Assembly: GCF_030944405.1 (NCBI RefSeq)
Contig: NZ_CP132339.1
Span: 5,704,001 to 5,768,000, forward strand
From: Janthinobacterium sp. J1-1
Lineage (GTDB): Bacteria > Pseudomonadota > Gammaproteobacteria > Burkholderiales > Burkholderiaceae_D
Length of the DNA: 64,000 bases
Direction of reading: 5' to 3'
Under the pieces are notes generated by a model. It was given only the letters and a program-made list of their open reading frames with translations, ran no database searches and was not told the origin of the DNA. Within the stretch, counting starts at the first letter, position 1. Every line of letters starts with the position of its first letter. The position numbers were made by a program, and so were the translations under genes. Positions 31,901 through 49,273 of the stretch are shown here, piece by piece.

Positions 31901-34900
31901 GGGTTTGCACGCGCACGTCTTTGCCCAAGCCGGCGTTCTTGTCGGTAAATACGCCGGTCTTGCCGGTGATGGTGATGGTTTCGTCATTCACCAGACCCTG
32001 CAAGGTACCACCCGACAAGACCGCATCGAACGTTCCGTCGTACACCTTGCCGCTGGCGCTCATGCCGCTGATCGTCAGCGCTTTTTGCGTGATATTGGCT
32101 GCCACGTTGCCCGGATTACTGACCGTGTAATTACTGGCCAGGCCGTTGGCGCCATCGGCCAACTGCGCGCCGCTGACTGTCACCACGATATTATTGCCGG
32201 CATTTTGAGTGGCAAAACTGCCGCTCAGGCCCGACAGCGTCAGGCTTTCGCCCGTCACGACGCCACTCAGGCTGCCGCCACTCAGGGCAGCGGCCTTGGT
32301 GCCATCGTAGTCGCGGCTGGCCGCCGTCACGCCCGTCACCGTCAACGCTTTCGGCGTGATATTGGCCAGCAGGCCGGTCGGGTTGCTGATCGTGTAGTTG
32401 GCCGCCAGGCCGCCGTTGACGCCGTTGACCAGGGATGCGCCGGTGGCCGTCGCCGTCTTGCCGGTGCCGGCGTTCTTGTCGTCAAACGTCGCCGACAAAC
32501 CGGTCACGCCGATGTTTTCCGAACCGACCAGGCCGACGACCGAGCCGCCCGCCAGGGTGGCCTTGGTGGTGCCGTCATAGACCTTGTTGATTACCGACAT
32601 GCCGCTGATCGTCAGTGCCTTCGGCGTGATGGTGCCGGTGCCGGTCGCCGTGCTGCTGGCCAGCAGGTAGTTGCCCGCATCAGTGCCGCCCAGGGTCAGG
32701 AAGGAGATGGTGACCGCCTTGCCGGTGCCGGCGTTCTTGTCGCTGAACGAGGCCTTGGTGGCGCCGATCGCCAGGCTGTCACCGCTGAGCATGCCGTTGA
32801 AGGTGGCCGTGGCCGAGCCGAAGGTGACAGCGGTGCCGCCATCGTAGGCCTTGCTGTCGGCCACCACATTGGTCACCGAGCTGATGGTGGCCTGGTTGAT
32901 ATTGGCCGTCACGCCGGTCGGGTTGCTGACCGTGTAGTTGCTGGCCAGACCAGTGCCGTCGGCCAGCGTCGCACCACTGATGGTGACCGCCTTGGCGGTG
33001 CCGGCGTTCTTGTCCGCAAATGTACCCGACAGGCCGGACAGGCCCAGGGTTTCGCCGCCGACCAGGCCGCTCAGCGTGCCGCCGGTGACGGTGGCCTTGG
33101 TGGTGGCGTCATACACTTTATTGGCGGCCGCCACGCCGGTGACCGTCAGCGCTTTTTGCGCGATGCTGGCTGTCAGGCCCGTGACAGGGCCGACCGAGTA
33201 GTTGCTGGCCAGGCCGCCGTTGGTGCCGTTGGACAAGGTGCCGCCGGTGATGCTGACGGCCTTGCCGCTGCCGGCATTCTTGTCGGCAAACGCGCCGGTG
33301 AGGCTGGCCAGGTTGACTGTTTCACCGCCGACAAAGCCGCTGCTGTCGAGCGTGCCGCCCGTCAAACCGGCGGCGACACTGCCGTCATAGGTTTTGTCGG
33401 CCGCCAGCGCGCCGGTGACCGTCAGGGTCTTCTGCGTAATGGTGCCGGTGACGCCGGTCGGATTGCTGACCGTGTAGTTGCTGGCCAGGCCCGTGCCGTC
33501 GGCTATGCCCACGCCCGTGACCGTCACCGCCTTGCCCGTGCCCGCGTTCTTGTCGGCGTACGCGCCGGTGCCGCCGGACACCACCAGCGTTTCACCGCTG
33601 ACCAGGCCGCTCAGGCTGCCACCCGACAGCGTGGCCGCCAGGGTGCCGTCATAAGCGCGCGTGGTGGCCGTCACGCCCGTCACCGTCAACGCTTTCGGCG
33701 TGATATTGGCAAGCAGGCCGGTCGGATTGCTGATCGTGTAGTTGGCCGCCAGGCCGCCGTTGACGCCGTCGACCAGGGACGCGCCGGTGGCCGTCGCGGT
33801 CTTGCCGGTGCCGGCGTTCTTGTCGTCAAACGTCGCCGACAAGCCGGTCACGCCAATGTTTTCCGAACCGACCAGGCCGACGACCGAGCCGCCCGCCAGG
33901 GTGGCCTTGGTGGTGCCGTCATAGACTTTGTTGATCACCGACATGCCGCTGATCGTCAGTGCCTTCGGCGTGATGGTGCCGGTGCCGGTCGCGGTGCTGC
34001 TGGCCAGCAGGTAGTTGCCCGCATCGGTGCCGCCCAAGGTCAGGAAGGAGATCGTGACCGCCTTGCCGGTGCCCGCGTTCTTGTCGCTGAACGAGGCCTT
34101 GGTGGCGCCGATCGCCAGGCTGTCGCCGCTGAGCATGCCGTTGAAGGTGGCCGTGGCCGAACCGAAGGTGACACTGGTGCCGCCATCGTAGGCCTTGCTG
34201 TCGGCCACCACATTGGTCACCGAGGAAATCGTGGCCTGGTTGATATTGGCCGTCACGCCGGTCGGGTTGCTGACTGTGTAGTTGCTGGCCAGACCAGTGC
34301 CGTCGGCCAGGGTCGCGCCGCTGATGGTGACCGCCTTGGCGGTGCCGGCGTTCTTGTTGACAAACGTACCGCTCAAGCCGGACAGGCCCAGGGTTTCGCC
34401 GCCGACCAGGCCGCTCAGGGTGCCGCCGGTGACGGTAGCCTTGGTGGTGGCGTCATACACCTTGTTGGCGGCCACCAGGCCGCTGACCGTCAAGGCCTTG
34501 GGCGTGATGTCGCCCGTCACGCCGGTCGGATTGCTGACCGAATAATTGCTGGCCAGGCCAGTGCCATCGACCAGCGTGGTGCCGGTGACCGTCACGGCCT
34601 TGCCGGTGCCGGCGTTCTGGTTGGCAAACGTGCCGGTCAGGCCGGATACGCTCAGGCTTTCGCCGCCCACCAGGCCGTTCAGGGTGCCGGCCGTCAGGCT
34701 GGCCTTGGTATTGCCGTCATACACCTTGGCGCTGGCCAGCACGCCGCTCAGCGTCAGCGCCTTGGGCGTGATGCTGGCAAGCAGGCCCGTCACGGCGCCC
34801 ACCGTATAGTTGCTGGCCAGGCCAGTGCCGTCGGACAGCGCGCCGCCGGTGACCGTCACGGTCTTGCCGCTCCCCACATTCTTGTCGCCGAATACGCCGG

Positions 34901-37900
34901 AGAGGCTGGACAGGCCCAGCGTTTCCGAGCCGACCATGCCGCTCAAGGTGCCGCCGCTCAAGACTGCCGCCAGGCCGCCATCATAGACCTTGTCGGCCGC
35001 CGTCACGCCGCCCACCGTCAGCGCTTTTTGCGTGATATTGCCGGTCACGCCGGTGGCATTGCTGACCGTATAGTTGCTGGCCAGGCCGCTGCCATCGGAC
35101 AGCGTGGCGCCGCTGACCGTCACGGCCTTGCCATTGCCCGCATTCCTGTCAATGAACACGCCCGTCTGGCCGGACAGGCCCAGCGTTTCGCCGCCGACCA
35201 GGCCGTTCAACGTGCCGCCCGACACCGTCGCGCTTGTGTTGCCGTCATAGGTTTTGCTGCCAACGGTGACGCCGGTGACCGTCAGCGCTTTTTGCGTGAT
35301 ATCGGCCGACAGGCCCGTGATGCTGCCGACCGTATAGTTGCTGGCCAGGCCGCCGTTGCTGCCGTCGCTCAAGGTGCCGCCGGTGACCGTCACGGCCTTG
35401 CCGGTGCCGGCGTTCTTGTCGCTGAAACTGCCGGACAGCGCCCCCAGGTTGATCGTTTCCGAACCGACCATGCCACTCAGGGCGCCGCCGCTGATGGTGG
35501 CGGCCGTGTTGCCGTCGTAGGCCTTGTTGCCGGCCGTCGCGCCGGTCACCGTCAAGGCTTTGGGAGTGATGCTGGCCGTCACGCCAAAATTGGCAACCGT
35601 ATAGTTCGATGCCAGGCCGCCAAAGTTGCCGTTGCTCAGGGTCGTGGAGACCGTGACGGTCTTGCCATTGGCGACGTTCTTGTCGGAAAATTCACCGCTG
35701 TTGACCGCGGTCAGCGTTTCCTTGTCGACCAGGCCACTGAGGGTGCCGCCGCCGACGATGGCGCTTGTGAGGCCGTCATAGACTTTATCACCCGCCGTCA
35801 CACCGCCCACGGTCAGGACCTTGGGCGTGACCGTGCCCGTGATGTCGGTCGGTGCGGCGAGCGTGTAATTGCTGGCCAGGCCGGTGTCGTTGCCCAGCGC
35901 GCCCAGCGTGACGGTCACCGCCTTGCCGGTGCCGGCATTCGCGTTGTCGTAGGTACCGCTGGACGTGCCGAGCGTCAGCGTTTCGCTGCCGACCAGGCCG
36001 TTCAATGTGCCGCCCGTCAGGACGGCCTGCCGGCTGGCATTGTATTGCCGGTCGGTGGCGGTCATGCCGGAGAGGGAAAGCTCCTTCGGCGTGATCGTGC
36101 CGGTCAGGCCTGCTCCGCTGGCCGTGATCGTGTAATTGCCGCCGGCGGTGCCGCTGCTAACCAAGGTCACGGTCTTGCCGGTGCCGGCGTTACTGGTGTC
36201 AAAGTTGCCGCCGGTGGCCGTGACTTTGCCTTTATCCACCGTCAGGATGCCGCTCAGTATGCCACCCTGGATAGTGGCCGTGGTGGTGCCGTCATACACG
36301 CGATCCTGAACCAGCCCGCCGTTCAGCGTCGCGGCCAGCTTGTTGATGGTCAGCGTCGCGGCGCTGCTGTTGATGGCGTAGCCGCGCTGGCCCGAATACA
36401 GGCCGCCGGCCGTAATGGCGTAAGTGCCGGCGTTGACGGCGCTGCCCGCGGCGCCATAGTTCAGGGTACCCTGCAGCGCCGCATAGGCAACCGAGTTTGA
36501 ACTGGTCACGCCCGGCGCCGTCCAGCCGGTGGTGGTGGCGTTATAGGTTTTGCTGGCGTTCGCGGCAAACGTCACCTGCAGCGGCGTCATGAAGGCGCGC
36601 AGCAAGGGATAGGTATTGGTGTCGTAGACGATCCACGTGCTGGTCAGATCCCAGCCCGCGCCGGTGTAGACGGACAGCAATTTCATTTGCGCGGTGCTCA
36701 AGCCGGTGCCGATGCCGCTGGCATTGGCGTTGGTCGCCAGGTTGCTGGTGGTGGTATCCCAGAAATTGCCGCTGGCGGTGCCGTTGTTGGAGCCCGTCAC
36801 ACCACCCAGGGTAATGCCGCCGGTGACAGTGCCGCTGGCATAGTTGTTGGTCAGCGTGCCGTTGTTCGTGCCGACCAGGCCGCCGAGAGTGCCGGTGCCG
36901 GTGACGGCGCCGCTGGCGTAGCTGTTGGTGACGGTACCTCCCGTGAGGTTCGAGCCGACCAGGCCGCCGACCTGGGTGCCGCCCGTCACGCTGGCGGTGC
37001 TGTAGCTGCCGCTGACGCGACCCAGATTGCTGCCGACCAGGGCGCCGGTGGCATCCATGCCGGTAATGCTGCCGCCTTCCAGGCCGACATTGCGCACGAT
37101 CGCGGTGCTGGACGTGGCGCCGAACAGGCCGGCGGAATTCGTGCCGGGACGGTTGATGACCAGGCCGGAAATGACATGGCCGGTGCCGTCGAAGGTGCCG
37201 GTAAACGGGGTGCCGGTGCTGGCGCCGACCGGTACAAAGGTGGCGCCGTTCCACACATCGCCGGTGGTGCCGGTGCTGGCGGCGTTGATATCCTGCTTCA
37301 GCGTGTAGTTGCCGGCCAGGTTCATCGCCATCAGCTGCAACTGGTGCGAGGAGTAGATATTGGTGCTGTACTCGGCCGACAGCATCGGCCAGGTGGCGCC
37401 GGTCTTGTTGCCCGCGCCGTTGAGCGTGCCGTCGGTATTGACCATCACCCAGTTGTTGCCGGTTGCGCCAGCCTTGGTCGTGAAATTGAAGCCCTCGAAA
37501 TTCGATCCGGTCTGCATTTCTGACGACGTCAGTCCCCTGGTCACCGAGACTGTCCCGCCGATGGTATTGGTGCCGACCTCCGCGATGGCCGGATTCACGG
37601 TCGTATTGTAAAAGCCGTTGGCGAGCGTACCCGTAGTCGCGCTGATCAAGCCGACCACGCCGCCCATCGTGCCGGTGGCGCCAGATTTCAGGCTCACTGT
37701 GCCGGACGAATACACCCTGGCGACATTGCCCGCTACGCCGAGCAAGCCGACCACCCCGCCCACCCCGCTATTGGTGCCCACCGTCGAGCCGCTGGCGCCT
37801 ATCACTGCGCCGGTCGCGTAACTGTCGGAGAGCACGCCCTTGTTGGCGCCGATCAGGCCACCGGTGGCGGTGTTGGCCGAAGAGGCGACACCCAGGCCCT

Positions 37901-40208
37901 GGGCGGTGACGGTACCGGTGGAATAACTGTTGCTGGTCACGGAAGCGGCGAACCCGCTACCGTTGGTATACGTCTGCGACACCAGCCCCCCCACAAAGGC
38001 GCCGCCGGAGACGGCGCCGGTATTGTAGCTGTTGGTAATGACGCCGCCGGCCCGATTGTGGACCACCAGTCCACCGACATCGTTTCTGCCTGTTATCACG
38101 CCGGAATTGAAACTGTTGCTGATACTGCCCTTGTTGTTGCCGACCAGCCCGCCTGTTGCGATCAGGCCGGTTACGCTGCCGCTGTTATAACTGTTGGTGA
38201 TATTGCTGGTGGCTTCGGCCTCGCCCACCAGGCCACCCAGCCAGCCACCCGTATTGGTTCCGGTCCGGGACACCGCGGCATTATTGTAGCTGTCGGTGAT
38301 GGTGCCTTGATTGAGTGCCACCAGGCCACCGGTATGTGTCCTGTCGATGCCCGATACCGTGCCGCTGCCGACAAACGCGTTGCTGATGATGCCGCTATTG
38401 ATACCCACCAGGGCCGCCGTCTGGCCATACAAGCCGCTGGCGATATTGCCGGTAATGGCAACGTTCGCCAAGCCGATGTTGCGCACGCTGGCCGTGGAGC
38501 TGGTCGCGCCGAACAGCGCGGCAATGCCGCTGGCCGTGGTATTGGTAATGCTCAGACCATGGATGGTATGGCCCAGGCCGTCGAACTGGCCGGTGAATGG
38601 CGTGGCGGCGGAGCCGATCGGCGCAAAGCCGTTGGCGCCCCAGATTCCCGTGTTCGCCGTGATGCTGGCATCGATATTCGCGCCCAGCACGATATTTTCG
38701 CCGAGTACGTTACGCAAGCCTTGCAGATCGGTGCCGGTCATGCTGCCGGCGGCGCCCAGGCTGTTGACCACCGTATACACCGTCGTCGCGCCATCGATGC
38801 CCAGCAAGGTGCTGAAGTTCTTGCCGGACGGCAGGTCAATCTCGGCCTTGACGTTATAGGTCGCCAGGTTGCCGGCAGCCGGCGCGCTCTGGCCATAGCG
38901 CAGCGCCAGGGTGGCCGTGCCCGAACCGCGCAGCGGCGCATTGATATTGATATTGTTGTGCGCCGTCAGCTTGAGCTGGTTGGCCGACCACAAAATCGTG
39001 TCGTTGACGTTGATATTGCCCAGGCCTGCGCCACTGGCGACCGTCTGGATATGCACGTCGGTAGTCTTCAGCGCATTCGTGTAGAACGCGCCGGTCTGGT
39101 CGCCGCCGGAAGCGGCAATCGTGAAGTCGGTCGGATCGATCAGCCAGGTGCCGGTCAAGCCCTTGCCTGCCACGGCCGAGGTGGTGATCTTCAGCGCATC
39201 GGCCATCTTGACCTTGGCGGCCGAGGTTTCGATAAAGCCGCCATTGCCGCCCGTCGGCGCGCTGGCGTCCAGCGTGCCGGACGCGTTCACCGTGCCGGTC
39301 TGCATATCGCCCAGCAGCTTGATGGTGCCGCTGCGCGTATCGATGGTGTGCGCCTCGATCACGCCGGTATTGTTGACCACGGTTTTCAGCAGGTCGCCGG
39401 CGGCCTGGGCCGTGAGCAGCACGCTGCCGCCATCGGCCTGGATCAGGCCGCCATTTTGCACCAGCGCGCCCACCGCCCCCTGGTCCACCGCCACGTTCAG
39501 CAAACCATCGCCGGCCACGTCCAGCGTGATGGCGCGGCCCGCCGCCAGCGCCACCGAACCGAGGCGCGCATTGATCGTGCCCTCATTCGACACATTCGCG
39601 CCCAGCAAGGCGACATAGCCGCCCGGCGCGCTGATGCTGCCCTGGTTCAATACCTTGCCCGTGCCGTTGCCGGAAAACTTATAGCTGCCCGCCATGAAGT
39701 CGGCGTTATTGATATCGAGCATGGAGGCCACCAAGCCGGCCGTATTGACGGACGCACCCTGGCCGAACAGGATGCCGTTCGGGTTGACGATAAACACCTT
39801 GCCGTTGGCCGACAGGTTGCCCAGAATCGTGGTGCCATCATTGCCCAGCACCCGGTTCAAGGCCACCGCATGGCTGTTCGGCTGCACGAACTGTACCGAC
39901 TCGCCCTGGTTGATATTGAAGTTGGCCCAGTTGATCACCGCATTCTGGCTGCCCTGCTTGATCACCGTCGAGCCCGGCGCGCCGGTAATGTTCGCCTGGC
40001 CCGCCACCACCGTGCCGCCCGTCGGCCCCGCCAGCGCCAGACTGCCGTAGCCCAGCATCAGCGCCGCCGCCATGCTGGTCAAGGCCAAATGCGCGCCGCC
40101 GCCGGCACTGCCGGGCATCGAGCGCTTCCCGGCCGATTTGACGTTTTCGGAAACAGCTGCGTAGGCACCGGTGGCCTGGTTCCAGATGGAGCGGTAGATG
40201 CGATTCAT
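25977..40208 (-). CDS. giant two-partner-secretion exoprotein (filamentous haemagglutinin-like adhesin) with YDG/MBG repeats
   Basis: 4743 residues. It starts with an extended signal peptide region (MNRIYRSIWNQATGAYAAV, then a hydrophobic segment near 43-60). A TPS secretion domain (about 60-330) has NWANFNINQGESVQF and NPNGILFGQGASVNTAGLVA. A GLUG-type repeat region (about 550-1170, GGLVGxNxGTVTNSYA) follows, then about 37 YDG-type repeats (about 1320-4510) of the form ALTVTGVTAGNKTYDGN, a single MBG-type domain and a short acidic tail. It is exported by the Sec system and the TpsB pore encoded upstream, 35 bp away, and is expected to reach the cell surface or medium. Likely a large adhesin or matrix protein; the binding target is unknown. 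No frameshift is visible through 14 kb of repeats. Confidence 0.92.
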   Translation of the reverse strand: MNRIYRSIWNQATGAYAAVSENVKSAGKRSMPGSAGGGAHLALTSMAAALMLGYGSLALAGPTGGTVVAGQANITGAPGSTVIKQGSQNAVINWANFNINQGESVQFVQPNSHAVALNRVLGNDGTTILGNLSANGKVFIVNPNGILFGQGASVNTAGLVASMLDINNADFMAGSYKFSGNGTGKVLNQGSISAPGGYVALLGANVSNEGTINARLGSVALAAGRAITLDVAGDGLLNVAVDQGAVGALVQNGGLIQADGGSVLLTAQAAGDLLKTVVNNTGVIEAHTIDTRSGTIKLLGDMQTGTVNASGTLDASAPTGGNGGFIETSAAKVKMADALKITTSAVAGKGLTGTWLIDPTDFTIAASGGDQTGAFYTNALKTTDVHIQTVASGAGLGNINVNDTILWSANQLKLTAHNNININAPLRGSGTATLALRYGQSAPAAGNLATYNVKAEIDLPSGKNFSTLLGIDGATTVYTVVNSLGAAGSMTGTDLQGLRNVLGENIVLGANIDASITANTGIWGANGFAPIGSAATPFTGQFDGLGHTIHGLSITNTTASGIAALFGATSSTASVRNIGLANVAITGNIASGLYGQTAALVGINSGIISNAFVGSGTVSGIDRTHTGGLVALNQGTITDSYNNAAVSRTGTNTGGWLGGLVGEAEATSNITNSYNSGSVTGLIATGGLVGNNKGSISNSFNSGVITGRNDVGGLVVHNRAGGVITNSYNTGAVSGGAFVGGLVSQTYTNGSGFAASVTSNSYSTGTVTAQGLGVASSANTATGGLIGANKGVLSDSYATGAVIGASGSTVGTNSGVGGVVGLLGVAGNVARVYSSGTVSLKSGATGTMGGVVGLISATTGTLANGFYNTTVNPAIAEVGTNTIGGTVSVTRGLTSSEMQTGSNFEGFNFTTKAGATGNNWVMVNTDGTLNGAGNKTGATWPMLSAEYSTNIYSSHQLQLMAMNLAGNYTLKQDINAASTGTTGDVWNGATFVPVGASTGTPFTGTFDGTGHVISGLVINRPGTNSAGLFGATSSTAIVRNVGLEGGSITGMDATGALVGSNLGRVSGSYSTASVTGGTQVGGLVGSNLTGGTVTNSYASGAVTGTGTLGGLVGTNNGTLTNNYASGTVTGGITLGGVTGSNNGTASGNFWDTTTSNLATNANASGIGTGLSTAQMKLLSVYTGAGWDLTSTWIVYDTNTYPLLRAFMTPLQVTFAANASKTYNATTTGWTAPGVTSSNSVAYAALQGTLNYGAAGSAVNAGTYAITAGGLYSGQRGYAINSSAATLTINKLAATLNGGLVQDRVYDGTTTATIQGGILSGILTVDKGKVTATGGNFDTSNAGTGKTVTLVSSGTAGGNYTITASGAGLTGTITPKELSLSGMTATDRQYNASRQAVLTGGTLNGLVGSETLTLGTSSGTYDNANAGTGKAVTVTLGALGNDTGLASNYTLAAPTDITGTVTPKVLTVGGVTAGDKVYDGLTSAIVGGGTLSGLVDKETLTAVNSGEFSDKNVANGKTVTVSTTLSNGNFGGLASNYTVANFGVTASITPKALTVTGATAGNKAYDGNTAATISGGALSGMVGSETINLGALSGSFSDKNAGTGKAVTVTGGTLSDGSNGGLASNYTVGSITGLSADITQKALTVTGVTVGSKTYDGNTSATVSGGTLNGLVGGETLGLSGQTGVFIDRNAGNGKAVTVSGATLSDGSGLASNYTVSNATGVTGNITQKALTVGGVTAADKVYDGGLAAVLSGGTLSGMVGSETLGLSSLSGVFGDKNVGSGKTVTVTGGALSDGTGLASNYTVGAVTGLLASITPKALTLSGVLASAKVYDGNTKASLTAGTLNGLVGGESLSVSGLTGTFANQNAGTGKAVTVTGTTLVDGTGLASNYSVSNPTGVTGDITPKALTVSGLVAANKVYDATTKATVTGGTLSGLVGGETLGLSGLSGTFVNKNAGTAKAVTISGATLADGTGLASNYTVSNPTGVTANINQATISSVTNVVADSKAYDGGTSVTFGSATATFNGMLSGDSLAIGATKASFSDKNAGTGKAVTISFLTLGGTDAGNYLLASSTATGTGTITPKALTISGMSVINKVYDGTTKATLAGGSVVGLVGSENIGVTGLSATFDDKNAGTGKTATATGASLVDGVNGGLAANYTISNPTGLLANITPKALTVTGVTATTRAYDGTLAATLSGGSLSGLVSGETLVVSGGTGAYADKNAGTGKAVTVTGVGIADGTGLASNYTVSNPTGVTGTITQKTLTVTGALAADKTYDGSVAAGLTGGTLDSSGFVGGETVNLASLTGAFADKNAGSGKAVSITGGTLSNGTNGGLASNYSVGPVTGLTASIAQKALTVTGVAAANKVYDATTKATVTGGTLSGLVGGETLGLSGLSGTFADKNAGTAKAVTISGATLADGTGLASNYTVSNPTGVTANINQATISSVTNVVADSKAYDGGTAVTFGSATATFNGMLSGDSLAIGATKASFSDKNAGTGKAVTISFLTLGGTDAGNYLLASSTATGTGTITPKALTISGMSVINKVYDGTTKATLAGGSVVGLVGSENIGVTGLSATFDDKNAGTGKTATATGASLVNGVNGGLAANYTISNPTGLLANITPKALTVTGVTAASRDYDGTKAAALSGGSLSGVVTGESLTLSGLSGSFATQNAGNNIVVTVSGAQLADGANGLASNYTVSNPGNVAANITQKALTISGMSASGKVYDGTFDAVLSGGTLQGLVNDETITITGKTGVFTDKNAGLGKDVRVQTLELTNGTGLASNYSVSVPMDMKANIAQKELAVGNVTALDKTYDGTVGASFTGGALSGFVKDETVGLASLAGKFADQNAGSGKDVSITGGTLSDGTNGGLASNYIVASSAGLSASISQKVLTITGVTAGNKTYDGSDTAILSGGTLNGLVGTETLSLSGQSGRFSDKNAGTNKDVTVSGATLGDAGSGATAGLASNYKVDNATGVKADIAQKALTVSGATALDKTYDGNTVAALAGGALNGLVGSETLALSAAFADKNAAAGKAVTVSLNDGSGLAGNYVLNNPTSLTATIDQKALTVTGVTAGNKTYDGNDKATLTGGVLNGLVGTETLSLSGQSGVFSDKNVGIGKTVTVSGATLGNAGTGATAGLASNYTVGNASGVTATIAQKALTVSGATALDKTYDGNTAAALAGGALDGLVDGETLALSAAFADKAAAAGKAVTVALNDGSGLAGNYVLNNPTGLTAAITPKALTVSGVTAGNKTYDGTLAASLSGGTLNGLVGTETLSLSGQSGVFSDKNAGIGKTVTVSGATLGDAGSGATAGLASNYTVGNATGVTANIAQKALTVSGATALDKTYDGNTVAALAGGALNGLVDGETLALTAAFADKNAAAGKAVTVSLNDGSGLAGNYVLNNPTSLTATIDQKALTVTGVTAGNKTYDGNDKATLTGGVLNGLVGTETLSLSGQSGVFSDKNVGIGKDVTVNGATLGNAGSGATAGLASNYKVDNATGVKADIAQKAVTVSGATALDKIYDGNTVAALAGGALNGLVDGETLALSAAFADKNAAAGKAVTVALNDGSGLAGNYVLNNPTGLTAAITPKALTVSGVTAGNKTYDGTRAASLSGGTLNGLVGTETLSLSGQSGVFGDKNAGSGKTVTVSGATLGNAGSGATAGLASNYTVGNATGVKADIAQKQLTVGGITAGNKVYDGGTAAALDTGSATFGGLVTGDSLNASASGAFSDKNAAAGKTVNISGIVLGGVDAGNYTLDSTTATAKADITAKALTVTGQLAGNKVYDGNTVASLSGGALSGLVDGETLGIAGQTAEFSDKNAANGKTVTVTGTTLVDTSTGLASNYSVSNPTGLTASITAKALTVTGQLAGNKVYDGNAQASLSGGALSGLVAGETLGFGGQSAVFSDKNAANGKTVTVTGTTLVDTATGLASNYSVSNPTGLTASITAKALTVTGQLAGNKVYDGNTVASLSGGALNGLIAGETLGFGGQNAVFSDKNAANGKTVTVTGTTLVDTSTGLASNYSVSNPTGLTASITAKALTVTGQLAGNKVYDGNTAAQLSGGTLSGLVAGETLVIGGQNVTFADKNAGTAKAVTVTGTTLVDTATGLASNYTVSNPTGLTASITAKALTVTGQLAGNKVYDGNTQASLSGGALSGLVAGETLGFGGQNAVFSDKNAANGKAVMVTGTTLVDTATGLASNYTVSNPTGLTASITAKALTVTGQLAGNKVYDGNAQASLSGGTLSGLVAGETLAFGGQNAVFSDKNAANGKTVTVTGTTLVDTANGLASNYTVSNPTGLTASITAKALTVTGQLAGNKVYDGTAQASLSGGALSGLVAGETLVIGGQNATFADKNAGTAKAVTVTGTTLVDTSTGLASNYTVSNPTGLTASITPKALTVAGQLATNKVYDGTTAAQLSGGVLAGLVAGESLGLAGQTATFADKNAATAKAVTVTGTTLVDTSTGLASNYTVSNPTGLTASITPASLLVRATGAASRVYDTTTNASVTLGDNRIAGDVLTISNSGASFADKNAGANKTVTVNGIALGGADAGNYIVNTTATTTASITQAGLGVKVDNAEKDQGRANPAFTASYTGLLGGDTLANEVSGNLAFTTPATTGSPSGSYVVSAAGQASTNYALTYTPGVLTVNPTEALQSAVASVIAAVNVAPSQGNMVQAEVVAKGETVTSKEDAVQVAVEGSQPQQQGSAPVVQTTASVNSNVLPGLRLNVIDTGLRLPVETGSTSIESQ
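26770..28900 (-). repeat. in-frame tandem repeats of 267 bp in the adhesin gene (8 units)
   Basis: Units of 89 codons encoding ALTVTGQLAGNKVYDG-type domains. A marker stretch at the tyrosine motif recurs near 27257, 27524, 27791, 28058, 28325, 28592 and 28859, exactly 267 bp apart, with high identity between units. These are the most homogeneous part of the array and are likely to vary in copy number by recombination. Confidence 0.9.
29160..31550 (-). repeat. 525-bp higher-order repeats in the adhesin gene
   Basis: Two alternating domain types (ATALDKTYDG and VTAGNKTYDG) make a 175-codon compound unit. The same marker recurs near 29226, 29751, 30276, 30801 and 31326, each 525 bp apart. This shows duplication of domain pairs rather than single domains. 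Confidence 0.88.
32339..33130 (-). repeat. segmental duplication in the adhesin gene, copy A (partner 33683-34474)
   Basis: About 790 bp that matches 33683-34474 almost base for base at an offset of 1344 bp. It covers the repeats carrying MSVINKVYDG, VVADSKAYDG and AAANKVYDA or LVAANKVYDA, a non-adjacent repeat block of about three domains. Confidence 0.85.
33683..34474 (-). repeat. segmental duplication in the adhesin gene, copy B (partner 32339-33130)
   Basis: Second copy of the 1344-bp-offset duplication; differences are scattered, mostly at third codon positions. Confidence 0.85.
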
Positions 40209-40243
40209 GGCGGGTCCTGAAGTGTGAACGTGTCGATGTTAGA

Positions 40244-41917
40244 TCAGAAATACTTGACTGCTTGCAACCAGAAGCGGCCGGCGGAATCCGGTGCGGAGGT
40301 CGCCTTGGCATTGCCCAGCTTGTGCGCGTAATACCCCTTGACGATCAGCGCATTGGCGCCGGTCCAGGAGACGCCGACGCCGGCGCCGCTCAAGGTGCGG
40401 CGGTTTTCGCCCGCGCTCCAGGCATGGCGGTTGAGCTTGACCGTGCCCGTATCGGCAAAGCCGACCAGTTGCAGCTGGCCGGCCACGGCGGTGAAGGCCG
40501 GCAGGTTTTGCCGCAGTTCCAGGTTCAGCACATAACCCTGGTCGCCATATGCCTCGCCGCCCGGATAGGCGCGCACGCCGCCGACGCCGCCCAGGCCCAT
40601 TTTTTCCGAGGCGTCGAGGTTTTTCGACGCCGTTTGCGCGTTGACGATGCCGAAGAAGCTGGTCTCGCCACCCAGGCTTTGCAGGCGCGAGGCGGTCAGG
40701 CCCAGCTTGTGGAAGCTGCCGTGGGTGTCCACCGTCAGCATGTCGATCAGGCGCGCCACCGGCGTTTCGATGTCGATCTTGCCGGTGGTATAGGTCAGCG
40801 AATAATTGCTGATGCCGCCGCCACCGAAAGCATCCTTGCTGTCGCCATTCAGATTGAACAGCCAGATCTTGGCTTTCTTGTCATTCACGCTGCCGGTCGA
40901 TTCGGTCTTGTCCTGCAAATCCTTGCTGTCGTAGTTCACTTGCGCGTACAGGCTACCGGCGCGCGCGCGGATCAAGGGGTAGCTGCCATACACGCTGGCA
41001 ATTTTTGCCGTGCCCTTCGCTTCCAGCACGGCAAATTCCTTGCCCAGTTTGTAGTCCATATGGGTGTAGGCCGTGCCCAGGCGCAGCAGGCCGGCCTGGG
41101 CCTGGTAGGCGGCGCGCACATAGTTCAGGCCGTCGGTCGAGGTAAACGCGCGCACGGTGGCGACGTCGCCGATGCCGGCCAGCTCATTGATATTGACGGT
41201 GGCGCCGATGCGGTTGCGGCCCGTGTAGCGGTTGCCCTGGTTGTCGACATCGACGCTGCCGTTGAAGCGCGCGCCGGGCTGCACGTCGACGATCAGGTCG
41301 GAAGCGCCCAAGGAGGCGCCCGGCGCCAGGGTCGAGCTGACCTGCACGCCCGGCAGGTCCGACAGCAGCAGCAAACGGCGTTCCAGCGGCGCGGTGGCGA
41401 CCACTTCGCCATCGAGGCCCGCCAGGATATTGCCGGCCAGGCCGTCGGACAGATTGCTCTTGTTACGCAGCTGCACTTGGCCGTACTGGCCCGGCATCAC
41501 GGTGATCTGCACCACGCCATCCTTGATGTCCTGCGCCGGCAAGTAGGCCTGGGCCAGGAAGTAGCCGCGCGTCTGGTAATAGCTGGCAATCTTGCTGGCC
41601 AGGCCGCGCAGTTCCGTCAGGGTCAGCTCGCTGCCCGGCACGAAGCCGCTGGCGGCGACCAGCTCGCTTTCCGCGAATACCGGCGGCGCGGCGATCTGCA
41701 GGCGCTCTACCTTGATGCGGGTGCTGTCGCCGACGATGGCGGCCGGCACATCGCCGCGCTGCACGCGGATGGCGGGCGCCGCTTTCGGCAACTGGGGCGC
41801 GACAGGAATTTGTTGCAGCTGGCTGCCGGCGGTCGGTTGCTGGGCGTAGGCGCCCTGGATCAGCAGCAGCAAGGTCAGGGGTAGAAGTTTGGAGCGCAAA
41901 AGTATCCTCTCGATCAC
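40244..41917 (-). CDS. TpsB-type outer-membrane translocator (ShlB/FhaC/HecB family)
   Basis: 557 residues with a signal peptide (to AYAQ, about 26). A POTRA_2 domain lies at about 75-150 (IKVERLQIAAPPVF, YYQTRGYFLAQAYLPAQDIKDGVV), and a second POTRA-like segment to about 225 is followed by a beta-barrel of about 330 residues. The barrel contains the conserved YPGGEAYGDQGYVLNLELRQ and FADTGTVKLN segments, and the C-terminal residue is Phe. The barrel exports the adjacent exoprotein by recognising its TPS domain. tpsB precedes tpsA on the same strand in the classical order, 35 bp apart. The AT-rich region upstream should carry the promoter of both. Confidence 0.93.
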   Translation of the reverse strand: MIERILLRSKLLPLTLLLLIQGAYAQQPTAGSQLQQIPVAPQLPKAAPAIRVQRGDVPAAIVGDSTRIKVERLQIAAPPVFAESELVAASGFVPGSELTLTELRGLASKIASYYQTRGYFLAQAYLPAQDIKDGVVQITVMPGQYGQVQLRNKSNLSDGLAGNILAGLDGEVVATAPLERRLLLLSDLPGVQVSSTLAPGASLGASDLIVDVQPGARFNGSVDVDNQGNRYTGRNRIGATVNINELAGIGDVATVRAFTSTDGLNYVRAAYQAQAGLLRLGTAYTHMDYKLGKEFAVLEAKGTAKIASVYGSYPLIRARAGSLYAQVNYDSKDLQDKTESTGSVNDKKAKIWLFNLNGDSKDAFGGGGISNYSLTYTTGKIDIETPVARLIDMLTVDTHGSFHKLGLTASRLQSLGGETSFFGIVNAQTASKNLDASEKMGLGGVGGVRAYPGGEAYGDQGYVLNLELRQNLPAFTAVAGQLQLVGFADTGTVKLNRHAWSAGENRRTLSGAGVGVSWTGANALIVKGYYAHKLGNAKATSAPDSAGRFWLQAVKYF

Positions 41918-42505
41918 ATAAGCACAATAAGCGGCACGGCAACAATGTTGCCATATAATAATTTAATAGTTTCTATATTTTAACATTGCTCATTTAAAAC
42001 TTGATTATCTTTATTTGCTTCAAGCCAAGATTTTTATAAATGAATTATTCTCTACTACGCGATATCTGGTGCAGTTAGCTTACACATTTTCCCTACAGAA
42101 TTAATCTCAGATAATCACCGCCACGCCTCGCGCAGCGCCACACAGTGGCCATCTGACGCTTACAGCATCTGAAAAGCCAGCCTTGAAATTTCCATAAGGA
42201 AACAATAAAACATTGTTTTATATTATCCAATATGTGTTCACCATTAATTTCCAGCATATTAAAAATTTTAATTAAATCATTATTTAACAATTACACCGAT
42301 AACCCGGCAGTAAAAGACACAATTACCGCGCCTTGCAAGCAAAAGCTTGCTAATCCGGCCATGGCCGGCAAAACCGTTGCCGGCACAAGCAGCAAGTCAA
42401 TCGCCGTTCAGGCTCGGCTTTACCGGCAAGAAAAACGTCGCTGAATAATTTCAGAAAACCCTGAAATTGTTGCTCCCTTACAACACCAACGCGCTCGACA
42501 TGGCG
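41918..42505. other. 588-bp AT-rich intergenic region upstream of tpsBA
   Basis: No gene is supported here. Most of 41935-42330 is strikingly AT-rich compared with the surrounding DNA. The right part contains a short stem-loop GCAAGC-AAAA-GCTTGC (42335-42350) and the palindrome CCGGCCATGGCCGG (42355-42368). It holds the promoter of the translocator/adhesin genes and the 3' end of the RNA-repair operon. No clean terminator is visible. Confidence 0.6.
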
Positions 42506-43645
42506 TCAAGCCACGTCATGGCGGACCAGGTGTGCCTCCTGCGGCAGTGGAATTTCCCAGTTCCACAACATCGTTTGCAGCTTCTTGTTACTCAAGGAGG
42601 TATCGCGCTGGCCATTGCGGCGCAGCAGTTCCTTGCGCGATTGCTCCAGGTACACCAGCTCAACCTGCGCATGGTATTTGTAGAGCAGATTGAGCGTTTT
42701 TTCGCGCATCAGCGCCGACAAATGGGTCGCGTTCCACACAAAGGGCAGGCCCTTGCGCAGCAGTTCACGCGCGCGCTCTTCCGCATAATCGCCCACCTGC
42801 CCTTCGTTCTTGCCATGGCGCAGGCCCAGCGCCTGGCGCGCATCGTCGAACGACACCACCGGCAGTTGCGGATGGTGTTTCGCCACCCAGGTATTCTTGC
42901 CCGACGCCGGCAGGCCCGACATGACGATCACCCGCGAGCCCGGCTGCTGGAACAAGGGATAGTCGGGATGCGCCTCGGCGCCGCGAAAATACCTGACGCG
43001 CGTATGATCGTCGACAAAGGCGCGCGGCCGGTCGTAACAGCCCTCCTCGCGCGCCAGTTCGCGAAACAGTTCGATCGCGTCCAGCATGCGCTGCGGATCG
43101 GGACAGATGCGGCCGCGGATATCGGCCTCGGCCAGCATGGCGAGCAGGCCGATATCGACCTGCCACGACAGTTCGCGCACGGTAAATTCGGGCGTCACGC
43201 CACGACGCGAGGTCTCCAGCGCAAAAAACGGCACCTGATGCACCTGGATCAGGCGGCAGATGGCTTCGCGCGCGGCAAACGGCACCGCGTAATCCCATAG
43301 CGCGATGCGGGCGTCGAGCGCCCCCTTGCGCGAGTGGCCGGGCTGGCCGATGGCGCCCGAGACAGGATCGATCACGGTGGTGCTGCACTTGGCCACGTCG
43401 TGCAGCAGCGCGGCCAGGAAGACGATTTCCTGCTGCGCGCGCGCGGCTTGCGCATAGGCAGGCATGGCCAGCAGCGCCTCGATGACCATCATGGTATGCG
43501 TCCAGACGTCGCCTTCGGCGTGATACACCGGATGTTGCGGCGTGGTCTTGGCCAGTTCCAGTTGTGGAAAGGCGGCCAGGCAGGCGGCGAAATCGGGCTG
43601 CCTCCCTGGCAGCGGCGCCAGTTGGCGCAGGGTGTTCCAGTTCAT
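42506..43645 (-). CDS. HD-domain/polynucleotide kinase fusion (HD-Pnk-like RNA end-healing enzyme)
   Basis: 379 residues. The N-terminal HD phosphohydrolase domain (about 35-200) has His50 in VWTH, the HD pair at 82-83 in LLHDVAK and further candidate metal ligands near 104 and 164. The C-terminal P-loop kinase domain (about 235-379) has Walker A GLPASGKNTW with Lys250 and an SFDDAR segment near 266. Characterised HD-Pnk proteins remove 2',3'-cyclic or 3' phosphates with the HD domain and phosphorylate 5'-OH ends with the kinase, preparing broken RNA for ligation. The ATG overlaps the RNA ligase stop as ATGA, so the two are made together. Assignment rests on the domain order and ligase partner. 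Confidence 0.85.
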   Translation of the reverse strand: MNWNTLRQLAPLPGRQPDFAACLAAFPQLELAKTTPQHPVYHAEGDVWTHTMMVIEALLAMPAYAQAARAQQEIVFLAALLHDVAKCSTTVIDPVSGAIGQPGHSRKGALDARIALWDYAVPFAAREAICRLIQVHQVPFFALETSRRGVTPEFTVRELSWQVDIGLLAMLAEADIRGRICPDPQRMLDAIELFRELAREEGCYDRPRAFVDDHTRVRYFRGAEAHPDYPLFQQPGSRVIVMSGLPASGKNTWVAKHHPQLPVVSFDDARQALGLRHGKNEGQVGDYAEERARELLRKGLPFVWNATHLSALMREKTLNLLYKYHAQVELVYLEQSRKELLRRNGQRDTSLSNKKLQTMLWNWEIPLPQEAHLVRHDVA

Positions 43646-44556
43646 CGGGTACTCCTTTTCTTTGTCAGTGCGGCCAGCTCGTCGAGCGAATGGCAGGTGC
43701 GCAGGCCCAGGCTTTCCCAGGTAAGCAGCGCTTGCGGCGCATACAGATCGACGCCGGGTGCCAGCTGGTTCGGGATCAAGGGCCGCGTGGCATGGTGCGA
43801 GCCGCTGTCGAGGATGGTTTGCGTAAAATCGGGCCGCACCAGCTTGTAGCGCGCCAGCACCTTGTCATCGTCTTCGACTTTCAGGTACAGGCCTTCGGCC
43901 AGGTCGGATTTGTCGGTCTGCCGCCAGCACAGGTCCAGTGGCAGCCTTTCACGCGCCACCACGGTCTCGAAGGCCCCGCGCCACAGCGTCGACTTGGCCA
44001 GCGAATGGCGCAGCAACTGCCACAGCTGCTGCGGCTTGGCCGGCATGGCGCCCGCGTACAGCACCGGCACGGACAGTACGGGCGATCCCGCCAGCAGCGC
44101 ATGCCGGCGCGCCGTCGACAAAAATGTCTGGGTGCGGCGGCAATACATGTCGAATTCGTTGAAGTAATGCGGCAGGCAATCGTAGAACACGGAATGCTTG
44201 CTGTAGGCCCATTCGCCGAACAGCACGTACCGGTCTTCCAGCAGCGCCAGCAAGGCGTGTTCATGGGCATGCGCCCACGGTTTCAACAGGTTGAACTGGC
44301 GCTCGCTGCCGCCGCCCATCAGGTAGTGGCCGCGCGACTGCAGCAGCACCTCGCCGGCCTCGCTGAACGAAACGGCGGCGTTGGCGCCATCGATTTTTTC
44401 TTCGATAACGACGTAACGATTGGCCAGCCGCTTGAGAGGCATTTGATCGGAAGCATCGTCGCCGGGCTGCAGGCGCGAGCCTTCCAGGTGCGGCGTGCGC
44501 GGGTATTTGAATAACGGTAAAGATTGCAGGTACATGGCGTCACACGCCGCGTTCAC
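43642..44556 (-). CDS. ATP-dependent RNA ligase (T4 Rnl2-like superfamily)
   Basis: 304 residues. Nucleotidyltransferase motif I is EEKIDGANA with the adenylated Lys at about 54. Motif III/IIIa region is YVLFGEWAYSKHS, motif IV is EGLYLKVED near 220, and motif V is RYKLVRPDF near 233. This set is that of Rnl-type RNA ligases that seal 3'-OH and 5'-phosphate ends. The GTG start at 44556 has AAAGGA 9-10 bases ahead; ATG 44535 is an alternative. First gene of the two-gene operon with the HD-kinase, whose products generate the ends this enzyme needs. Possible roles are tRNA or mRNA repair after ribotoxin damage. Confidence 0.87.
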   Translation of the reverse strand: MNAACDAMYLQSLPLFKYPRTPHLEGSRLQPGDDASDQMPLKRLANRYVVIEEKIDGANAAVSFSEAGEVLLQSRGHYLMGGGSERQFNLLKPWAHAHEHALLALLEDRYVLFGEWAYSKHSVFYDCLPHYFNEFDMYCRRTQTFLSTARRHALLAGSPVLSVPVLYAGAMPAKPQQLWQLLRHSLAKSTLWRGAFETVVARERLPLDLCWRQTDKSDLAEGLYLKVEDDDKVLARYKLVRPDFTQTILDSGSHHATRPLIPNQLAPGVDLYAPQALLTWESLGLRTCHSLDELAALTKKRSTR

Positions 44557-44825
44557 CGGGGCGTGTCCTTTGCAGGGTCAGGGGTGCTGACGACGGGGTC
44601 GGGCGTGGACTATTTTCAGCGCACAAAGTGTCGCGGCAATCGGGAGCGTCAACGCGCCGGCCGATACCGCACAGGGCAGTTCGTCAGCGTTAGCAGGTGA
44701 TGGCGAATTGGCGAGGCACTTTTGGCTCCAATGAGGAAGATGTTTGGGAAAGAAGCTGCAATATAACGGCAGTGCCGCTGTATTGCAAGCTTTAGGATTG
44801 CAAGCAGCTGAGGGAAAGCGTGTCC
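44557..44825. other. intergenic region upstream of the RNA-repair operon
   Basis: Nothing I would call a gene. It must carry the promoter of the ligase/HD-kinase pair and the end of the dehydrogenase transcript. No sigma-54 type or other clear promoter motif was seen. Confidence 0.4.
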
Positions 44826-45695
44826 CTACTTCTTGCCCAGGCGCGTGATCAGGCTGGAGGTGTCGTAACGGTTGCCGCCGGCCTGCTGCACTTCGCCATA
44901 GAACTGGTCGGTCAGCGTGGTGACAGGCAGCTCGCTGCCGTTGCGCTGCGCTTCGGCCAGGCAGATGCCCAGGTCCTTGCGCATCAGGTCGACGGCAAAG
45001 CCGAAGTCGAACTTGCGCTCGATCATGGTCTTGCCGCGGTTTTCCATCTGCCACGATTGCGCCGCGCCCTTGGAAATCACGTCCACCACCAGCGCCGCGT
45101 CCAAGCCCGCATTCTCGGCAAAGGCGATGCCTTCGCTGAGCGCCTGCACCAGGCCGGCGATGCAGATCTGGTTGACCATCTTGGTCAGCTGGCCCGAGCC
45201 CGATGGCCCCATGTAGGTCACGGCGCGCGCGAACAGCGCGATCACGGCTTCGGCCCGCGCATACGCTTCCGCATCGCCACCGGCCATCACCGTCAGCTTG
45301 CCGTTTTCGGCGCCTGCCTGGCCGCCCGAGACGGGCGCGTCGAGGAAGAACACGCCCCGCTCTTGCGCCGCAGCATGGATGGTGCGGGCCGCTTCGGCCG
45401 AGGCCGTTGTATGGTCGACCAGGATGCTGCCCGGCGCCATGCCGGACAGCAAGCCGCCCTCTTCCAGGATCACCTGGTACAGATCGTTGTCGTTGCCGAT
45501 GCAGGTGAAGACGAACTCGGCGCCAGCAGCCGCCGCGGCCGGCGTGGCGGCGCTGCTGCCCCGGTGCTGTTCCAGCCAGGCTTGCGCGCGTGCCGGATTG
45601 CGGTTGTAGACAGTCACCTCATGCCCGCCCGCCGCCAGATGGCCCGCCATGGGAAAACCCATCACGCCCAGTCCGATAAATGCCACTTTTGCCAT
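44826..45695 (-). CDS. beta-hydroxyacid dehydrogenase (3-hydroxyisobutyrate/tartronate semialdehyde reductase family)
   Basis: 289 residues. The N-terminal NAD(P)-binding motif is FIGLGVMGFPMAGHLA; the substrate signature DAPVSGGQAGAENG is near 120-133, and the catalytic Lys lies in GSGQLTKMVNQ near 170. These enzymes reduce or oxidise short beta-hydroxyacids such as tartronate semialdehyde, 3-hydroxyisobutyrate or gamma-hydroxybutyrate; the exact substrate is not resolved. The N-terminus MAKVAFIGLG is standard. It is leftward like hisC but 78 bp away, with no obvious functional link to the neighbours. Confidence 0.88.
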   Translation of the reverse strand: MAKVAFIGLGVMGFPMAGHLAAGGHEVTVYNRNPARAQAWLEQHRGSSAATPAAAAAGAEFVFTCIGNDNDLYQVILEEGGLLSGMAPGSILVDHTTASAEAARTIHAAAQERGVFFLDAPVSGGQAGAENGKLTVMAGGDAEAYARAEAVIALFARAVTYMGPSGSGQLTKMVNQICIAGLVQALSEGIAFAENAGLDAALVVDVISKGAAQSWQMENRGKTMIERKFDFGFAVDLMRKDLGICLAEAQRNGSELPVTTLTDQFYGEVQQAGGNRYDTSSLITRLGKK

Positions 45696-47114: not shown

Positions 47115-47206
<92 letters not shown>

Positions 47207-47529: not shown

Positions 47530-48861
47530 ATGCTCAACGATACTCTCCACTTCCTTGCTAACCACCTTGAAGCACCTGACTGGCGCCGGCTGGGCGAACA
47601 CTTGCCGGTCGAGTGGATTGATCAAGCCGTGCAGCATACTGATGCAATGAGCATCCGCCATCGTCGCCTACCGGCCGAACAGGTAGTCTGGCTGATGGTG
47701 GCATTGGCACTATATCGCCACAAGTCCATTAGTGAGGTCCTCGATGATCTCGGCTTGGCCGTTCCAGATGCACAGACTCCTTTTGTCAGCAAGAGCGCGG
47801 CTGCCCAGGCGCGCCAGCGCCTCGGCTCAGATCCGTTGAAGTGGCTGTTCGACCACTCAGCACAGCATTGGTGCGGCCAGGATCGTCGCTCGTATCTGTT
47901 CAAAGGATTGGTACTTTTTGCAATGGATGGGACCACTTTGCGGACCCATGACAATGACGAGACCCGTGAACACTTCGGCGCACAAAATTATTCCAGTGGC
48001 GCCATCGCGAGCTACCCTCAGGTACGCGGGGTGACCGTCACTGCGTTGTCAACCCATCTTGTTCACAGCGCTGCGTTTGGGCCTTACGGCACGAACGAAA
48101 TGCTGTACGCCAAAAGGCTGATCGATGGCATACCCAACGATTCGCTGACCGTCTTCGATCGCGGATTTCTCTCAGCTGAAATTCTGTGCGCGCTAACCCG
48201 AGGCGGAAGTGAGCGCCACTTCGTCATCCCTGCCAAATCGAATACACGCTGGGAAGTGATCGAGGGCACTGAGGATGGCGACGACTTCACAGTGCGCATG
48301 CGCGTGTCACCGCAGGCGCGTGCCAAGTGTGCACAATTGCCGGAGTTTTGGGAGGCGCGTGCCATTACCGTCGTTGATGAACAAGCGCGAAGGCGTGTCC
48401 TGCTCACTTCGCTATGCGACCGACGCCGCTACAAACATGCCGATATCGAGAACTGCTACAAGCGTCGCTGGGGCATCGAAACAAGCTATCGCGAACTCAA
48501 GCAGACGATGCTTGGCGCCACGCTTACCCTGCGCTCAAAAACGGTAGATGGCGTGTACCAGGAGATCTGGGGCACCCTGATCGCCTATAACTTGATCCGA
48601 CTGGAGATCGCCAAAGCCGCCTTGGTAGTCAAATGCGCACCGACCGAAGTGAGCTTCATCCGGGCCTTCCACCTGATCCAGTTCGAACTTCACTGGGCCG
48701 CCGTCACTAGGTCGTACGGCAAGCTGCCTGCGTCAATGAAACATCTGCGCGAAAGGCTGGTTAGCCTCTTGAATGACGAACGGCCCGATCGAAAATTCGA
48801 CCGGGCCGTCAAGGCTAAACCAAAGCGTTATGCCACGCGCGTTCTACGAAAACCTGCTTAA
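47530..48861 (+). CDS. IS4-family transposase
   Basis: 443 residues. DDE catalytic core: first Asp in FAMDGTTLRTHD (near 138), second Asp in LTVFDRGFLSAE (near 213), and Glu in the YKRRWGIETSYRELK box, which shows the Y-(2)-R-(3)-E-(6)-K signature of IS4 elements. An N-terminal helical domain (about 1-110) contains RRLPAEQVVWLMVALALYR. Basic C-terminus. It mediates cut-and-paste movement of the surrounding element. Lower GC and different codon flavour than the neighbours, consistent with a mobile origin. Confidence 0.95.
   Translation: MLNDTLHFLANHLEAPDWRRLGEHLPVEWIDQAVQHTDAMSIRHRRLPAEQVVWLMVALALYRHKSISEVLDDLGLAVPDAQTPFVSKSAAAQARQRLGSDPLKWLFDHSAQHWCGQDRRSYLFKGLVLFAMDGTTLRTHDNDETREHFGAQNYSSGAIASYPQVRGVTVTALSTHLVHSAAFGPYGTNEMLYAKRLIDGIPNDSLTVFDRGFLSAEILCALTRGGSERHFVIPAKSNTRWEVIEGTEDGDDFTVRMRVSPQARAKCAQLPEFWEARAITVVDEQARRRVLLTSLCDRRRYKHADIENCYKRRWGIETSYRELKQTMLGATLTLRSKTVDGVYQEIWGTLIAYNLIRLEIAKAALVVKCAPTEVSFIRAFHLIQFELHWAAVTRSYGKLPASMKHLRERLVSLLNDERPDRKFDRAVKAKPKRYATRVLRKPA

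Positions 48862-49181: not shown

Positions 49182-49273
<92 letters not shown>

Follow-up and report, generated by a model that had tools for sequence, protein, structure and literature searches.

The HD-Pnk of Runella slithyformis, attributed to Munir and Shuman in J. Bacteriol., is reportedly an end-healing HD-kinase whose homologues are said often to share an operon with a putative ligase, and we know of no leader described for it. Here, we analysed a pair of genes for an RNA ligase and an HD-Pnk, together with the conserved leader that precedes them, in a 64,000-nucleotide stretch of Janthinobacterium sp. J1-1 (contig NZ_CP132339.1, positions 5,704,001 to 5,768,000; hereafter the window). 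To our knowledge, T4 Pnkp/Rnl and bacterial Pnkp1-Rnl-Hen1 include no HD phosphoesterase. Both resemble the pair in healing and sealing ribotoxin-cut RNA according to the available text of PMC4411300, which also places a methyltransferase in the Pnkp1-Rnl-Hen1 complex, whereas none was found adjoining the window's pair. The pairing of HD-Pnk and ligase is itself already known from the Deinococcus radiodurans operon DRB0098-DRB0099-DRB0100, in which a protein with HD and kinase parts is likewise encoded in one operon with an ATP-dependent nucleotidyltransferase/ligase. In that operon, unlike in the window, a macro-domain gene lies between the two; it is discussed as DNA repair in the available text of PMC1997131, where kinase and adenylyltransferase activities alone are demonstrated. 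The Deinococcus upstream region (locus L122; L numbers denote the loci compared) shows by eye no leader of the kind described below.

The proposed logic of the leader has a precedent in PA5471.1-armZ of Pseudomonas aeruginosa, where a short upstream open reading frame (uORF) also precedes an RNA-ligase-like gene. According to the available text of PMC12057347, PMC3516279 and PMC13041342, ArmZ, which is RtcB-like, rises when the PA5471.1 uORF is deleted or stopped early, and it also rises, by way of the same uORF, when the CCA-adding enzyme is lost. The gene is turned on by lost or truncated uORF translation and responds to a tRNA-repair defect; it differs from the present case in its 13-residue peptide, its RtcB-like target and the transcription attenuation proposed for it. 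RtcBA with RtcR is also an RNA-repair operon responding to damaged tRNA, but it has a CARF-domain activator and a ligase of another family (PMC7790460, available text). Compared with these systems, we read the window's pair as an accessory RNA-repair operon under a leader-peptide switch, a reading that we hold with even confidence. The leader and the RtcB neighbours found in relatives, both outside the initial annotation, bear most on what triggers the operon.

The leader is composed of a Shine-Dalgarno sequence, a 9-codon uORF (VPRQFAITC followed by a stop) and a long-range stem, P1 (GCTGACGA/TCGTCAGC). Very probably it is genuinely conserved and belongs to this operon, and it is apparently new. 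Alignment of 15 Janthinobacterium loci gave a near-invariant block upstream of the ligase. Among 27 distinct Janthinobacterium sequences, 88% of the 50 nucleotides from the Shine-Dalgarno sequence to the P1 5' arm are invariant, compared with 77, 85 and 36% at the three ligase codon positions, 48% in the loop after the 5' block and 38% in the promoter-like stretch. The same layout recurs in other letters in Massilia, Achromobacter, Burkholderia, Pectobacterium, Roseateles, Rubrivivax, Pseudomonas and three further genera. Across genera, the uORF has 6–9 codons and a GTG start (ATG in L023/L024), its stop begins 4–6 nucleotides before a GCYRACGA-like arm, and the partner arm ends about 18–36 nucleotides upstream of the ligase start. 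The peptides themselves vary: VPRFFAITC and variants stand beside the window's VPRQFAITC in Janthinobacterium, with VPVSFY in a divergent member, followed by VPRFHIITR in Massilia; VPRTFAITA, VPRTSNIIA and VPRIVAIPH in the three further genera; VSAIRQFA and VSAIRHLA in Achromobacter; VPAIIRPFA and VPANIRPFA in Burkholderia; VPCTSAPH and VPCTSASH in Pectobacterium; VPCTSQLA on P. aeruginosa plasmids; VPHANQHA in Pseudomonas; and MKTRTSILC and MKTRTSIPC in Roseateles and Rubrivivax. In total, the leader was present in 78 of 108 ligase loci, as 22 distinct uORF-to-arm strings encoding 21 peptides; these are loci rather than genomes, many of them represented more than once. A second 9-codon frame (GTG to TGA) was seen by eye in Massilia (L016:5009-5038), where it overlaps the ligase ATG as ATGA.

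The stem was assessed in several ways. A motif-blind stem finder, whose output covers loci other than L086-L111, placed P1 as the first or second helix in the displayed leader loci except L023, L024, L027 and L112. In an RNAalifold consensus of 20 leaders, P1 was the sole helix predicted (energy -8.9, covariation term -0.6), and 97.5% of its cells were paired. Three of the eight pairs show changes on both sides, namely C-G to U-A in six Janthinobacterium rows and G-C to A-U (L027; L115). No shuffle among 500 matched the percentage paired, the eight doubly changed cells or the covariation score, and slid versions of the arms scored far lower; the number of pair types was reached by 243 of the 500. 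L015, L017 and L027 show some misalignment at the outermost pair. Judged from these alignments, P1 appears to be backed by about three independent compensatory events. A composite feature with perfect 8-nucleotide arms, a criterion chosen after the pattern was seen, was present in 11 of 13 leader-bearing representatives, missing L176 (one G-U) and L023 (six pairs), and in none of eight leaderless ones; in 1500 shuffles of each, it arose in no more than 0.13% for the leader-bearing representatives and 0.27% for the leaderless ones. Among the loci fetched after the idea of a leader arose, L173 and L174 (near copies), L176 and L177 carry it and L175 lacks it, while L178 comes from the genome of L085, already known to be leaderless.

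The leader also appears to be specific to this operon. The 5' module was modelled from sequence alone (22 leaders, 77 positions), and this model, run with stricter filters against 399 genomes of the order, seven of which have the ligase, matched in 34 genomes at E<=0.01. Only five matches exceeded 40 bits, one each in five of the seven ligase-bearing genomes and always ahead of the ligase; the next scored 23.1 bits. As four of these five were used to train the model and the other is a near copy, what is informative is that strong matches occur nowhere else. Six weak matches inspected by eye (L184-L188, L192) do not have the layout, and the model matched L019, which has the leader, but none of the 30 other ligase or HD-Pnk loci given to it. 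The possibility that the leader is a general regulatory element was not supported, strong matches in the 399 genomes being confined to this ligase. Rfam contained no leader family matching 42300-45000. A blastn search of plasmids with the window's leader gave no match, and two P. aeruginosa plasmids carry a diverged leader. Among the papers listed by searches of open-licence literature aimed at such a leader, none was recognised as describing it.

As to function, it is fairly probable that ribosomes read the uORF and thereby switch an RNA fold. In the mechanism that we propose, a ribosome reaching the uORF stop would cover the P1 5' arm and block P1; the 3' arm, left free, would lengthen a hairpin that covers the ribosome-binding site of the ligase, and expression would be low. 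If uORF translation failed or ended early, for example without intact charged tRNA, the 5' arm would become free, P1 could form, the ligase site would open and the repair enzymes would be made. The best reading by analogy is that this switch may work like PA5471.1-armZ. Least certain in this scheme is the natural signal, for which we tentatively suggest tRNA damage. With similar reserve, the leader might represent a new translation-sensing attenuator family for HD-Pnk/ligase operons, forming a loop from tRNA cleavage to repair that needs no dedicated sensor protein.

Folding of 14 leaders was predicted with the uORF masked and then with nine further nucleotides masked at the P1 5' arm. The second mask made the ligase ribosome-binding site 1.2–8.3 kcal/mol more costly to open in nine leaders (L176, L173, L177, L015, L018, L023, L027, L028 and L115). 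In seven of these nine, no other nine-nucleotide mask matched the effect; in L015 and L023, 3 of 41 and 2 of 59 masks did. With the uORF masked, the probability of P1 was at least 0.74 in nine leaders and at most 0.40 in five. Hence, the predictions suggest that a ribosome covering the 5' arm closes the ligase site and that a free arm lets P1 open it.

Several observations weigh against such a switch, or against the repair activities assigned to the pair. The same mask changed the cost by only +0.2 to -1.5 kcal/mol in the window, L014, L001, L016 and L021. The window's own value is +0.2 kcal/mol with the GTG ligase start and +2.0 kcal/mol with an ATG start (which gives +1.2 in L001 and 0.0 in L014), and the predicted switch is weak for the window's own leader. 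Without any mask, P1 had a probability of 0.46 or less in all 14 leaders, and with the uORF masked it stayed low in L014 (0.01), L016 (0.00), L015 (0.06), L115 (0.15) and L028 (0.40). Regarding covariation, three doubly changed pairs were also reached in 30 of 500 shuffles, and the six doubly changed Janthinobacterium cells amount to one inherited change. The leader is lacking from 30 of the 108 ligase loci, namely the viral-contig loci, L031, L117, L119, L120, L085/L178 (one genome) and L175. Because the uORF codons differ between lineages, they point to no particular codon or tRNA, and the idea that a single codon or amino acid is sensed was rejected, the peptides being too variable. Finally, in the available text of PMC1997131, HD-motif mutants of the D. 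radiodurans protein retained 3'-phosphatase activity, and the D. radiodurans ligase joined neither DNA nor RNA.

The same input could act through transcription attenuation, with the role of P1 reversed: P1 and a U-run would form a terminator, and a ribosome held on the uORF would mask the 5' arm and turn the operon on. This is the mechanism proposed for PA5471.1 in the text available, and U-runs follow the 3' arm, by eye, in Burkholderia, Pseudomonas, the P. aeruginosa plasmid, Achromobacter L017 and Pectobacterium. However, no U-run follows it in the window, the other Janthinobacterium loci, L016, L173, L176 or L177, and P1 loops of about 55–200 nucleotides would be unusual for a terminator; we consider attenuation unlikely.

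The distribution of the pair bears on a second alternative. At E<=1e-3, with about 8000 candidates scored for each, 2599 homologues of HD-Pnk and 3926 of the ligase were found; with thousands of homologues for both proteins, the pair is not a product of chance. A search of genome contigs gave 107 stretches encoding a relative, and 79 loci were kept. HD-Pnk was matched over most of its length in 31 (L001-L031), and a ligase match adjoins it in all 31; L025 and L026 hold the ligase 3' end only. The remaining 48 matched in the HD part only and had no ligase match. HD-Pnk occurs in 28 of 40 Janthinobacterium genomes and in 2 of 274 genomes of a class sample, and 10 genomes sampled around G643 contained no further ligase locus. 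Relatives lie on megaplasmids; HD-Pnk is found in 40 plasmid records (18 from Deinococcus) and one phage record, and viral contigs hold nine loci with an HD-Pnk relative and 20 with a ligase relative. This patchiness agrees with the suggestion in the initial annotation that the pair is accessory cargo. It would also fit cargo for defence or counter-defence against phage- or competitor-induced tRNA cleavage, made constitutively with no switch, as would the changing neighbours and the megaplasmid, phage and viral relatives. Such a role overlaps in function with the operon that we propose. However, no PADLOC model matched either protein of the pair, and the conserved leader argues for regulation; we give such a constitutive defence cargo a low probability.

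The leader might instead be kept for another reason, as a binding site of the ligase or HD-Pnk (autoregulation), a small RNA with a function of its own or a DNA operator made of two half-sites; in each case the uORF would be incidental. In Janthinobacterium the uORF is constrained at the nucleotide level, including synonymous sites, and paired operator half-sites might also co-vary. Nevertheless, the start, the length of 6–9 codons and the stop-to-arm distance are kept while the peptide changes, the spacing of the arms varies widely, unlike in an operator, and there is no Rfam family; we regard these explanations as rather improbable.

The enzymatic part of the proposed repair operon was compared with known families. 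The two open reading frames (ORFs) of the pair lie on the minus strand, the ligase first, and overlap by ATGA as initially described (Table 1). The ligase matches PF09414 (RNA_ligase, E=1.6e-33), with no NCBIfam match, and its nucleotidyltransferase motifs, already noted in the initial annotation, hold up: K53 of EEKIDGAN, E114, E133-F134-D135, E220-G221 and K237 (numbered without the first residue) do not vary among the 48 sequences aligned. We take these to be the named nucleotidyltransferase motifs, the lysine lying in motif I. Alignment with relatives gives ATG 44535 as a possible start; the usual start lies near it, so the first seven ligase residues are uncertain. HD-Pnk has the HD domain at the N-terminus (PF01966, E=1e-4, 23 bits, barely passing the cut-off of 22) and AAA_33 at the C-terminus (PF13671, E=8e-18), bearing out the fusion of a predicted HD phosphoesterase to a P-loop polynucleotide-kinase-like domain; NCBIfam matches were weak and below cut-off. 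In 36 aligned HD-Pnks, H50, D83, H104, H136 and D175 are invariant in the HD part and G244, G249, K250, D267, R314 and R343 in the kinase part, and H82 is near-invariant (Q in L015). The H, HD, H and D residues would be metal ligands, judging from the sequence. The Walker A motif GLPASGKNT has N or D after GK in these 36, where S or T is usual.

AlphaFold models of the ligase and HD-Pnk have a mean predicted local distance difference test score of 90.7 and 92.5, respectively. In Foldseek, the Naegleria RNA ligase (NgrRnl), T4 Rnl2 and archaeal RNA ligases rank first for the ligase, and its top 29 matches are mostly RNA ligases (TM-score about 0.35–0.45). The HD-Pnk kinase matches mammalian PNKP and Clostridium Pnkp kinases on top, with PSTK and PFKFB3 also present, and the HD part matches that of a tRNA-processing enzyme. 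The TM-scores are modest over the whole query (about 0.3–0.44), so these matches are statements at the level of families. Single sequences of the pair found no match in the PDB, and a ligase profile gave chance matches only, which were discarded. The HD-Pnk profile matched PSTK (E=4e-10), T4 Pnk (7e-7) and a Clostridium kinase (5e-6); a tRNA-processing enzyme was matched weakly, in its HD part (E=0.005). Since PSTK comes first, the exact acceptor of the kinase is not settled by sequence; a placement of the HD-kinase in an unrelated nucleotide-kinase family, which would have spoken against the initial annotation, was not found, the matches being PSTK, T4 Pnk and Clostridium Pnkp. By family, the HD domain would remove 2',3'-cyclic or 3' phosphates, the kinase would phosphorylate 5'-OH ends and the ligase would seal. 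Families, motifs, predicted folds and the kept adjacency thus support the end-healing and sealing set first proposed, and its substrates are likely tRNAs or other RNAs cut by ribotoxins. A sub-threshold Rfam match to BcKCsr2 inside the ligase gene (44000-44148, E=0.05, 21.7 bits against 40) is probably chance.

Table 1. Features of the RNA ligase/HD-Pnk operon and its leader in the window.
Feature	Position	Strand	Basis and remarks
Promoter-like TTGCAA-N17-TATATT	44760..44788	-	by eye
uORF Shine-Dalgarno-like GGAG	44726..44729	-	sequence, alignment
uORF, 9 codons, GTG start, VPRQFAITC, stop TAA	44690..44719	-	sequence, alignment
P1 5' arm GCTGACGA	44681..44688	-	uORF stop codon begins 4 nucleotides before arm
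Hairpin P2 (CTGC with GCGG)	44667..44679	-	by eye; absent from RNAalifold consensus
P1 3' arm TCGTCAGC	44586..44593	-	ends 30 nucleotides before ligase GTG
Hairpin CACGCC/GGCGTG around ligase start	44543..44565	-	by eye, 15 Janthinobacterium loci
RNA ligase	43642..44556	-	304 residues from GTG 44556; Pfam, alignment, model
ATGA overlap, ligase stop/HD-Pnk start	43642..43645	-	sequence
HD-Pnk, HD phosphoesterase and P-loop polynucleotide-kinase-like domain	42506..43645	-	379 residues
HD domain, residues 47-139	43229..43507	-	Pfam PF01966; Foldseek
Kinase domain, residues 239-359	42569..42931	-	Pfam PF13671; alignment of 36

The neighbours of the pair change between relatives. In the window, a ShlB/FhaC-type TpsB gene adjoins on the HD-Pnk side, and a 6-phosphogluconate/hydroxyisobutyrate-dehydrogenase-like gene followed by hisC lies on the ligase side. 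The absence of an adjoining toxin, CRISPR or phage gene, as initially reported, holds for the three nearby genes scanned, namely the TpsB gene, the dehydrogenase-like gene and hisC. L014 has the same surroundings, the two-partner secretion genes as well as the dehydrogenase and hisC, and so does L086 within the limits of its shorter flanks. A TpsB-type gene is present in six of the 14 Janthinobacterium loci that have a close pair (L001-L014). In L014 it lies on the HD-Pnk side, like that of the window; in L002, L004, L007, L010 and L012 it lies on the ligase side and has only 38–39% identity to the window's TpsB. A divergent RtcB lies on the ligase side in L001, L003, L006, L008 and L013, and L005, L009 and L011 have neither within the stretch examined. 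One RtcB type (about 312–320 bits, positions 9-425) was found in 10 of the 40 Janthinobacterium genomes, always adjoining the pair, which makes 10 of the 28 that bear HD-Pnk; the 12 genomes without HD-Pnk have none of this type. It is absent from the ligase's contig in G529, G626, G643, G679 and G767, and the window's own genome has no RtcB beside the pair. That genome (6.95 Mb, two contigs) holds a single PF09414 gene, this ligase, and RtcB matches at two sites away from the pair; a second RtcB gene is split over two overlapping frames (C1:878122-879245). In Burkholderia, another RtcB lies upstream of the pair in L018 and L019, and L020 is without it. An RtcB beside the pair in Janthinobacterium and near it in Burkholderia favours RNA as the substrate class without proving it. 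One plasmid copy of the pair has umuD and a Y-family polymerase nearby, and a second has an SOS-associated peptidase and a 3'-5' exonuclease. These two copies, together with the phosphorylation of DNA 5'-OH ends by DRB0098 and the induction of its operon by gamma-irradiation (PMC1997131, available text), would fit a role in mending DNA ends, the one originally suggested for the Deinococcus operon, but the ligase model resembles RNA ligases first, RtcB neighbours occur in two genera and DRB0100 did not join DNA according to the same text; we consider this role very unlikely. Clustering the predicted ORFs of the 31 loci, a crude procedure with which antisense ORFs in GC-rich DNA interfere, gave no third gene conserved across genera.

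Mobile and repeated sequences were also seen. In L025:1-7706 and L026:1-7668 (Burkholderia), L113 and L114, an element of about 7 kb splits the resident HD-Pnk gene after about codon 43; it contains a PF00589 integrase, a PF13009 'Integrase_2' and a 216-residue ORF on the opposite strand. The element brings a second, complete HD-Pnk behind the ligase on the same strand, and the remainder of the old gene lies beyond it; the element resembles known recombinase trios. In the window, a repetitive 4743-residue TpsA-like ORF (25977-41917) and its ShlB/FhaC-type partner (PF03865, PF08479) lie near the pair. Two identical tRNA-Ser(CGA) genes (47117-47206 and 49184-49273; 90 of 90 bases) form an exact repeat that extends 13 and 9 nucleotides further, and an IS4-type transposase gene (47530-48861) lies between them.

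RNA heal-and-seal operons are widespread, and through the leader RNA repair would depend directly on how the tRNA pool is faring. Since the leader appears to couple expression to the translation of a tiny ORF, it makes the damage signal of the operon a testable question. If the proposed switch is true, RNA ligases of unrelated families would have come under leader-peptide control more than once, PA5471.1-armZ being the other case.

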